Shown here: piece after piece, positions 27,783-28,911 of the stretch | Position numbering within the stretch: position 1 is the first letter of the stretch | How the letters are laid out: each line of letters opens with the position of its first letter | From: Pedosphaera parvula Ellin514 | Lineage (GTDB): Bacteria > Verrucomicrobiota > Verrucomicrobiia > Limisphaerales > JADJPG01 | Assembly (NCBI GenBank): GCA_945872975.1 | Contig: CAMCCU010000003.1 | Location: 1 to 35,006 of the forward strand | Direction: 5' to 3' | DNA length: 35,006 bases | Notes under the pieces: model-generated | What the model saw: the letters and a program-made list of their open reading frames with translations, nothing else | Database searches by the model: none | What the model was told of the DNA's origin: nothing | Made by a program: the position numbers and the translations under genes

Positions 27783-27810
27783 CGGGGCGGTGAGACATCT
27801 CACCGCCCCG
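27783..27810 (-). promoter_or_regulatory. Strong hairpin between rplL and rpoB, probable attenuator
   Basis: A perfect 13-bp stem (CGGGGCGGTGAGA with TCTCACCGCCCCG) with a 2-base loop begins 12 bases after the rplL stop. The following bases CTTAATTC are only weakly U-rich. Position and strength resemble the partial attenuator between rplL and rpoB in E. coli, which lowers polymerase output relative to ribosomal proteins. Confidence 0.65.
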
Positions 27811-27822
27811 ACATATTCAAAC

Positions 27823-28203
27823 TTACTTGATCGTCACTTTAGCGCCGGCTTCCTCGAGCTTCTTTTTGGCAGCATCAGAGTCAGCTTTGTTGGCACCTTC
27901 CAGCACCGGCTTCGGTGCGCCCTCAACGAGAGCTTTGGCTTCAGCCAAACCGAGCCCGGCTTTCACTTCCCGCACGGCTTTGATCACGGAGATCTTCTTG
28001 TCGGCTGGAGCGGATTCAAGAATCACATCGAACGAATCCTTGGCTTCTGCTGCCGGAGCAGCTGCACCAGCACCAGCGGCCGCGACGGCGACCGGAGCTG
28101 CGGCGGAAACGCCCCAAGATTCTTCAAGCTTCTTGACGAGTTCCGCGGTTTCAACCACGGTCAGTTTGCTCAGTTGTTCTACAATGTTGGCGAGATCAGC
28201 CAT
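27823..28203 (-). CDS. rplL: 50S ribosomal protein L7/L12 (bL12)
   Basis: The 126-aa protein has the standard three-part layout. The N-terminal dimerisation domain ([30 protein letters not shown]) is followed by an Ala/Gly/Pro hinge at about residues 33-55. The C-terminal factor-binding domain has [42 protein letters not shown]. It forms the stalk that recruits EF-G and EF-Tu and is present in several copies per ribosome, so it must be made in excess of the other proteins of the operon. The 198-base spacer upstream, unusually long, contains a candidate structured RNA ending 12 bases before the ATG. Confidence 0.98.
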
Positions 28204-28215
28204 ATTTATCTTTCA

Positions 28216-28320
28216 GTCTCGTCGCCAACCGAAGCCTCGGTTGATTTGAGTTCGCAGCCGCGAACCGACGATTCACTCTATTGTTGGTTGTTGTTTGTTA
28301 GTCCTGCCCGCCAACGAGAC
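28216..28320 (-). ncRNA. Candidate structured mRNA leader of rplL (three-way junction)
   Basis: Read on the minus strand, an outer 9-bp stem (GTCTCGTTG with CGACGAGAC, one G-U pair) encloses two perfect hairpins with the same tetraloop: GTTCGC-GGCT-GCGAAC (28265-28250) and CAACCGA-GGCT-TCGGTTG (28243-28226). A long A/C-rich single-stranded segment with repeated AAC lies on the 5' side of the first hairpin. The outer stem ends 12 bases before the rplL ATG, just upstream of the weak ribosome binding site (GAAAGA). I know of no named family with this shape. It may control rplL translation or mRNA processing. Confidence 0.5.
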
Positions 28321-28401
28321 GAGCTGGAAATTATGAGGCACCTGACGTTCGATGGTTGAGTACCGATGGCACCTTCATCGACGACCAGAAGCCGGAATTA
28401 G

Positions 28402-28911
28402 TCAGCCCTTGTCGGCTTTAGCCTGAAGGACACGAGCCAACTGGCTGGCAGGCGTATTGAGAATACGGACCAAGCTGGTCGCGGGAGTGTTGAGCATCCC
28501 CAAAAGAGTTCCACGAAGGACTTCGAGGCTGGGCAAGTCTGCCAGCATGATAAGTTCCTTGTTCTCGATCCGCTGGTTGTTCAGATAGCCGAACTTCAAT
28601 TTCGGCTTATCAAACTCAGATGAGAAGGTCTTGAGAGCCTTTGCAGCAGCAGAGACATCCTGCTTGCCCGTGACGATTGCGATTTGACCCGCCAAAGCCC
28701 CAGTCAGATCAGCAACGCCCGCCTCTTTGGCGGCGATGCGGAAGATCGAGTTTTTGACAACATGCAATTCGGCCCCCGCTTTGAGCAGGCGCTTCCGCAA
28801 TTCGGTAATTGGACCGACCTTCAAACCCTGGTAATCAACCACGATGAAGTACGGCGACGCATTGAGCCGGGTGATATACTCGGCGGAAATATTTTGCTTT
28901 TCGGCACGCAT
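28402..28911 (-). CDS. rplJ: 50S ribosomal protein L10 (uL10)
   Basis: This 169-aa protein, of normal length, begins MRAEKQNISAEYITRLNASP. It contains VVDYQGLKVGPITELRKRLLKAGAELHVVKNSIFRIA, typical of the rRNA-binding domain, and ends in the helical L12-binding tail TSLVRILNTPASQLARVLQAKADKG. L10 anchors the L12 dimers at the stalk base. In many bacteria it represses its own operon by binding a leader before rplJ. Here only 20 bases separate it from rplA, leaving no room for such a leader, while the space after it (before rplL) is long and structured. Confidence 0.97.
   Translation of the reverse strand: MRAEKQNISAEYITRLNASPYFIVVDYQGLKVGPITELRKRLLKAGAELHVVKNSIFRIAAKEAGVADLTGALAGQIAIVTGKQDVSAAAKALKTFSSEFDKPKLKFGYLNNQRIENKELIMLADLPSLEVLRGTLLGMLNTPATSLVRILNTPASQLARVLQAKADKG

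Follow-up and report, generated by a model that had tools for sequence, protein, structure and literature searches.

Of all ribosomal proteins, L12 alone occurs in several copies, and the way in which its dose is matched to that of L10 is, to our knowledge, poorly known outside E. coli and Bacillus. The question is raised by a contig of Pedosphaera parvula Ellin514 (order Limisphaerales, phylum Verrucomicrobiota), where the window (the whole stretch of DNA that was analysed, 35,006 nucleotides) carries on its minus strand the genes rplK, rplA, rplJ, rplL and rpoB in that order, named here from the encoded protein sequences and the operon order and not from an annotation record. The gap between rplA and rplJ is 20 bases, as the preliminary description of this DNA had given it, and rplJ and rplL are separated by a spacer of 198 bases (28204-28401, minus strand). 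What RNA does this spacer encode, and could it bear on the supply of L12?

The spacer had been called unusually long; long it is, but not unique, as 9 of 169 Limisphaerales loci have a spacer of at least 198 bases (median 140, range 89-226). In the predicted fold its 5' part (28329-28401, minus strand) forms an additional long hairpin, which accounts for the length of the spacer and for which relatives with spacers of about 140 bases have no room. The whole spacer folds at -78.6 kcal/mol, compared with a mean of -66.1 kcal/mol for dinucleotide shuffles (z -2.90; 1 of 200 shuffles as good), and 28216-28320 folded alone gives a z of -2.29 (4 of 200 dinucleotide shuffles as good). The rplL-rpoB spacer also folds far better than shuffles (z -4.90); directly 3' of rplL it holds a near-perfect, GC-rich hairpin of 11-12 bp (27783-27810, minus strand), possibly an attenuator or a processing site.

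In the part of the spacer next to rplL, two perfect hairpins with GGCU loops had been described within a 9-bp closing stem. The hairpins hold, with 6 bp at 28250-28265 (P2) and 7 bp at 28226-28243 (P3, with a possible additional U-G pair 28244/28225), and so does the distance of 11-12 bases between the end of the structure and the rplL start codon of the window. The 9-bp stem (28312-28320/28216-28224) is not the conserved closing stem: it is part of the centroid fold of 28216-28320 taken by itself, but folding of the full spacer places 28312-28320 in a hairpin further upstream (HP0, 28302-28328), and the comparative P1 (28266-28271/28219-28224) has a mean pair probability of 0.92 in the window. 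At least eight consecutive pairs of the 9-bp-stem kind occur in 3 of 116 spacers, the window included, while shuffles give a mean of 0.56 and a maximum of 3. The 9-bp stem was rejected as the conserved P1, as the short P1 is found in nearly all relatives and the longer stem in hardly any; on comparative grounds, the conserved P1 consists of UCGUCG/CGACGA and, outside it, a clamp of 3 bp. The three-way junction so defined (P1a, a 3x1 internal loop, P1b, P2 and P3; Table 1) takes up about 62 bases and ends about 7-27 bases 5' of the rplL AUG, with a median spacing of 14.

Table 1. Features of the rplJ-rplL region, in coordinates of the window.
Feature	Position	Strand	Relations and evidence
rplJ (uL10)	28402..28911	-	ORF; relatives by protein search
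HP0, upstream hairpin, 10 bp around an A/A mismatch	28302..28328	-	contains the 5' strand of the 9-bp stem described earlier
CAA-rich linker, predicted unstructured	28278..28301	-	separates HP0 from the core motif
Core motif, three-way junction with predicted kissing loops	28215..28277	-	adjoins the rplL ribosome-binding region on its 5' side; model R1 and covariation
P1a, 5' strand AGU	28275..28277	-	pairs with 28215-28217; outer pair covaries
3x1 internal loop, three-base side GAA	28272..28274	-	opposite G28218; alignment A1
P1b, 5' strand UCGUCG	28266..28271	-	pairs with 28219-28224
P2 hairpin, 6 bp	28250..28265	-	double changes at 6/6 pairs
Loop 1, GGCU	28256..28259	-	predicted kiss with loop 2 (28233-28236)
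Junction strand J2/3, UCAAA	28245..28249	-	alignment A1; relatives
P3 hairpin, 7-8 bp	28225..28244	-	double changes at 7/7 pairs
Loop 2, GGCU	28233..28236	-	predicted partner of loop 1
P1b, 3' strand CGACGA	28219..28224	-	pairs with 28266-28271; alignments A1 and A2
P1a, 3' strand ACU	28215..28217	-	pairs with 28275-28277; outer pair covaries
Shine-Dalgarno-like GAAAGA	28209..28214	-	GAAAG conserved near the AUG
rplL (bL12)	27823..28203	-	ORF of 126 aa; relatives by protein search; gene 3' of the motif

The comparison drew on rplL neighbourhoods gathered from the order, from named contigs and from the wider phylum, out of which the spacers were excised; nine loci (six and three in two sets) had no usable gene pair. 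The seed alignment A1 of covariance model R1 comprises 68 sequences, ten of 78 diverse sequences having been omitted for odd loops or ends, a choice that favours the consensus. In A1, 94.5% of the cells are paired vs 81.0% in shuffles, and the covariation score, with the loop-loop pairs counted in, is 0.408 as compared with 0.149 in shuffled alignments; none of 500 shuffles reaches it, and every slid control scores 0.112 or less. The number of pairs changed on both sides is less telling (14, for a shuffle mean of 11.8; 29 of 500 shuffles as high); the six pairs of P2 and the seven of P3 are all changed in this way. When the structure is not supplied, RNAalifold recovers P1b, P2 and most of P3.

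P1b is invariant in the 68 sequences of A1 save for one cell. In the wider CM alignment A2, 3 of its 6 pairs are doubly changed, and the covariation score rises to 0.626 against 0.150, a value that leans towards the structure in that A2 was fitted to it. All 93 matches enter the main count of A2; the picture for P1b is alike on the 83 of 93 rows that are left when ten opposite-strand second matches of a locus are dropped. The outermost pair of P1a is A-U in 66, C-G in 24 and an A.G mismatch in 23 of 118 sequences, and it is paired in 92 of 118, compared with a mean of 62.8 and a maximum of 80 in 5000 shuffles. The three-base side of the internal loop is GAA in the window and mostly AAA in relatives (AAA/G is the commonest form in the order, as seen in A1), and the J2/3 strand is A-rich both in A1 and in the relatives. 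The covariation that the preliminary description proposed to look for in related spacers is therefore found at every pair of P2 and P3, while P1 is nearly invariant within the order and covaries across the class. These alignments show P2 and P3 to be free in sequence and fixed in pairing and, judged by them, the fold is real and conserved.

The loops of the two hairpins appear to be coupled as well. In the window both read GGCU, and could pair with each other as G.U, G-C, C-G and U.G; their identity, which had been pointed out earlier, holds for the window, but the loops of relatives differ and tend to complementarity, loop 1 being mostly GGC followed by a base and loop 2 mostly a base followed by GCC or GCU. 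At the three core kissing pairs the variation is too small for a test (70, 78 and 79 paired cells vs shuffled means of 69.6, 77.1 and 79.0), and two of the three do no better than shuffles. In loop shuffles, all of which ignore relatedness, the fourth loop pair is formed by standard pairs in 56 of 81 cases, a count that 2 of 5000 shuffles reach (mean 42.7), and by strict Watson-Crick pairs in 38, reached by 6 of 5000 (mean 25.5). Among 97 distinct loop pairs, from a set of 194 parsed rows of which 26 were removed by a score and junction rule, the mean complementarity lies above all 2000 re-pairings; very strong matches number 21, which is within the range of the shuffles (mean 15.4, up to 26), and the level of the 30 non-canonical loop pairs is reached by 39 of 5000 re-pairings. 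Compensated loops are found as GGCG/CGCC (L004, L054, L058, L064, L146), AGCG/CGCU (L085, L089, L090) and GCCC/GGGU (L080, L208, L221, L225, L226), and L186 has GCA/UGC vs GCG/CGC in L187, L189 and L192. A kissing contact between the tips of P2 and P3 is probable; since the core pairs are nearly constant, the case for it comes from the fourth loop pair and about a dozen exceptional loop pairs. No good loop match is present in L028, L040, L161, L163 and L188, and Opitutales-like, AUACGU-type loops are at odds with loop-loop pairing. In seven members of the class (L222, L255, L257, L258, L260-L262), an invariant first-hairpin loop AUACGU, possibly a UNCG-type tetraloop, replaces kissing loop 1 and is followed by UUAAACGC.

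As to its distribution, R1 matches the window at 28213-28276 with 75.1 bits (E 4.4e-20), and the second-best match in the same genome, which is 76% complete, reaches 16.6 bits among the 150 of 6909 candidates that were scored. In Limisphaerales, 100 of 100 and 23 of 24 loci are matched, with L198 as the one miss; 50 of these 124 loci supplied sequences to R1, and locus counts are not genome counts, some of the loci L031-L079 sharing genomes with other loci. From outside the order, 26 of 42 loci are matched at E up to 0.1, and the 16 without a match include the Opitutales loci L088, L091, L094 and L095 and several families. Some of the loci missed by R1 (e.g., L085, L089, L208, L221, L225) were parsed as a three-way junction by a script, which gave no parse for L088, L213 and L214. 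On this comparative evidence, the three-way junction RNA is conserved across the class Verrucomicrobiia. None of 48 loci outside the class is matched by R1 at E up to 1; across the phylum, with 18 candidates per genome scored by the filter, 22 of 288 genomes are matched, the own genome included. Of 146 genomes of the order, 73 contain a single copy of an exact-core pattern, which coordinate comparison places directly 5' of rplL in all 73 cases; the pattern is strict, and little can be read from the lack of it in the remaining 73. The motif stands 5' of rplL alone, therefore a ligand, if there is any, would act on rplL.

Other conserved stretches precede rplL elsewhere. All five spacers of the Spirochaetes loci L105-L109, whose rplA-rplJ gaps are also short (4-12 bases), share a different one, GUCAGGCUUCG...CUG(C/U)CGUUCCUGUC, which may be the Treponema candidate HMP2_2105 as described in the main text of PMC8040213. 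The spacers of L228-L231, L233 and L265, from another class, and of L272 have GUGUCGUAAAA..CCG and CGGUU(A/G)CAC in common, which could close another three-way junction 5' of rplL and have no R1 match.

The surroundings of the core are conserved as well. A hairpin stands at the place of HP0 in 122 of 122 distinct upstream segments, with a stem of at least 10 pairs in 113 of them vs 307 of 1220 shuffles, and [AC]UUUC is found there in 84 of 122 segments vs 8.5 on average in shuffles. HP0 was rejected as an intrinsic terminator, there being no U-run 3' of it in the sequences inspected, and a competition of its loop GCC for loop 1 was likewise rejected: GCC falls in a predicted hairpin loop in 29 of 129 upstream segments (shuffles, 97 of 1290), but this is confined to some lineages. 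A recurrent HP0 loop, (U)UAAGCC (e.g., L012, L016, L021, L026, L161), could pair with the GGC of loop 1. In 117 of 123 cases the 20 bases preceding the motif include CAA, and the linker has an A+C fraction of 0.803 vs 0.55 in whole spacers. On the 3' side, GAAAG lies at most 22 bases from the AUG in 107 of 144 spacers. The Shine-Dalgarno region is unpaired in the predicted ground state to 0.84 in the window and to 0.69 on average (n=116), and no sequestration of it is evident in the predicted folds of the 116 spacers; as the region is mostly unpaired, repression would need a bound factor.

A structured cis-element 5' of rplL, strongly conserved and covarying, is supported by these comparisons, and the motif probably helps to control the amount of L12 made. 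In the reading that we prefer, to which we give about an even chance, it is a cis-acting RNA of the rplL message, namely a ribosomal-protein leader that acts on rplL alone, with feedback by binding of a ribosomal protein. Two features by which leaders are recognized are found here, a consistent place in the untranslated region 5' of a ribosomal protein gene (73/73 places; 123/124 loci) and a conserved secondary structure with covariation. The kissing contact would clamp P2 and P3 side by side, and the clamped junction would expose the sequence-conserved P1 together with the internal loop as the surface that a ribosomal protein recognizes; that P1 is fixed while P2 and P3 vary within the order is the pattern expected if a ligand reads P1. 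Our best guess for this ligand is L10(L12)n of the same operon, with L11 or L1 as alternatives. Protein in excess would bind the junction, and the resulting complex, placed at the 5' edge of the 30S site, would act as a block that lowers rplL translation; with the protein not bound, the Shine-Dalgarno region would be open and rplL would be read at its own high rate, independently of rplJ. The supply of L12 would be controlled at rplL, within the operon, and not 5' of rplJ. More tentative, and in itself somewhat doubtful, is the idea of a new class of leader, placed inside the operon and serving rplL alone, in which a kissing-loop junction that lacks a kink-turn recognizes the stalk complex, or else L11, for a class-wide L12:L10 feedback.

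The main rival is a constitutive, ligand-free element that sets the dosage, which fits the data almost as well. HP0 would insulate rplL from ribosomes ending on rplJ, the CAA linker would be the landing site of the 30S subunit, and the junction would bring the linker beside the Shine-Dalgarno sequence, with a fixed high initiation and several L12 per L10 as the result. The conservation of HP0 and of the CAA linker along with the junction, the open Shine-Dalgarno region of the predicted folds and the occurrence of the motif 5' of rplL only are all in keeping with it, but it leaves unexplained why the sequence of P1 and of the internal loop is fixed while P2 and P3 drift within the order, and we hold it to be unlikely. 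The same difficulty with the conserved P1 sequence is met by an RNA processing or stability element, in which a cleavage in the CAA linker would split the operon message; with rplKAJ protected at its 3' end by HP0 and rplL at its 5' end by the junction, the rplL message would outlive the rest. The layout of hairpin, unstructured linker and compact 5' end, seen in almost every spacer of the order, agrees with such a role; the short spacing between junction and AUG (median 14) suits a translation element, and processing seems to us quite improbable.

A small-molecule riboswitch would find a precedent in the tuning-fork shape of the purine riboswitch, with its three-way junction and two docked hairpin loops, but no Rfam riboswitch matches and the only target is a single gene, for a ribosomal protein, which makes this reading very improbable. 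Perfect hairpins do arise by chance, and the near invariance of P1 within the order is what a DNA-level feature could give too; a chance fold or a DNA-level feature is contradicted, and its probability is negligible, in view of a covariation that greatly exceeds that of shuffles and slid controls, at all pairs of P2 and P3 and, when the whole class is considered, in P1.

The preferred reading, a ribosomal-protein leader on rplL, has one of its closest known counterparts in the L10 leader (RF00557) of E. coli and Bacillus rplJL. Both would be leader RNAs of a stalk-protein operon, and L10(L12)4, the ligand of the L10 leader, is also the best guess for the Verrucomicrobial motif; the L10 leader stands 5' of rplJ, whereas the motif lies between rplJ and rplL. 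The rplA-rplJ gap is at most 60 bases in 166 of 169 Limisphaerales loci (the exceptions are L018, L072 and L192), which supports the conclusion that in this order a leader would not fit 5' of rplJ. In the rest of the phylum the rplA-rplJ gaps are short too, and the motif is absent; the loss of an rplJ leader thus extends beyond the motif, and the move of control to rplL, suggested in the preliminary description, is something that we infer. The Rfam L10_leader model gives no match at its gathering score in the window or in any of 20 scanned loci, of which 15 belong to the class; as a positive control, a locus of Anaerolineaceae with a rplA-rplJ gap of 201 bases (L097) is matched with 48 bits, and two further long-gap loci (L100 and L103) are not, so that the control succeeded in one of three. 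No family of Rfam 15, riboswitches with the purine model included, matches the window or the scanned loci, and no obvious motif of the L1 type is shared before rplK, where sequences were compared by eye.

The kink-turn consensus is a three-base loop followed by tandem sheared G.A pairs. Known L10(L12)4 sites have a kink-turn and an unpaired UAA, according to PMC4538822, and the kink-turn of L10(L12)4 targets is also described in PMC10931766. Against a leader of this type, the motif has no recognizable kink-turn. A kink-turn at the 3x1 loop was rejected by inspection, the flanking pairs being Watson-Crick and covarying (C-G to U-A in 7 rows of A2), and no conserved tandem G.A was seen beside the 3x1 loop when the core motif was inspected in A1 and A2. 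As regards the UAA, a GUAAA internal loop is found in most Limisphaerales and GUUCC in many other members of the class.

Two other RNAs have a similar topology. The purine riboswitch is a three-way junction in which the loops of P2 and P3 dock; the junction and the docked loops are similar, whereas the gene context differs and there is no Rfam match. In 23S rRNA, helices H42-H44 of the GTPase-associated centre, the site of L11 and L10, form a three-way junction in which an A-rich strand runs between two docked hairpins. A likeness to this rRNA of the same order was rejected beyond topology, as the hairpin and loop sequences differ by eye. The GTPase-centre pattern was found in the 23S rRNA of 17 of 58 Limisphaerales genomes, and all 17 read UUAGAGGCAGCC and UUUAAACA, with two differences from the query pattern.

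Comparative genomics with covariation has previously given 20 ribosomal leaders before r-protein genes (Eckert et al., 2020; PMC7247131), none of them listed for L10 or L12 in the main text, from which Verrucomicrobia are absent. The motif before rplL is not found in the main texts of PMC7247131, PMC11109978, PMC8632094, PMC2864571 and PMC8040213, and literature searches on rplL, Verrucomicrobia, leaders and structured RNA returned no description of it. Candidate RNAs 5' of L7/L12 are given in PMC8040213 as possible ribosomal protein leaders, namely HMP2_2105 (Treponema, 86 bp) and HMP2_254 (Collinsella, 51 bp), the main text naming no Verrucomicrobia. Like the motif, they are conserved RNAs directly 5' of rplL; they belong to other phyla and differ from it in length. 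Going by the main text, the kind of element is already known from these candidates, and the architecture and the lineage appear to be new. With an RNA of about 62 bases at nearly every locus of the order, absent from Rfam, the question of L12 dosage becomes testable in cultured Verrucomicrobia and, were L10(L12)n indeed its ligand, the motif would be a second, unrelated RNA solution for recognition of the stalk complex.
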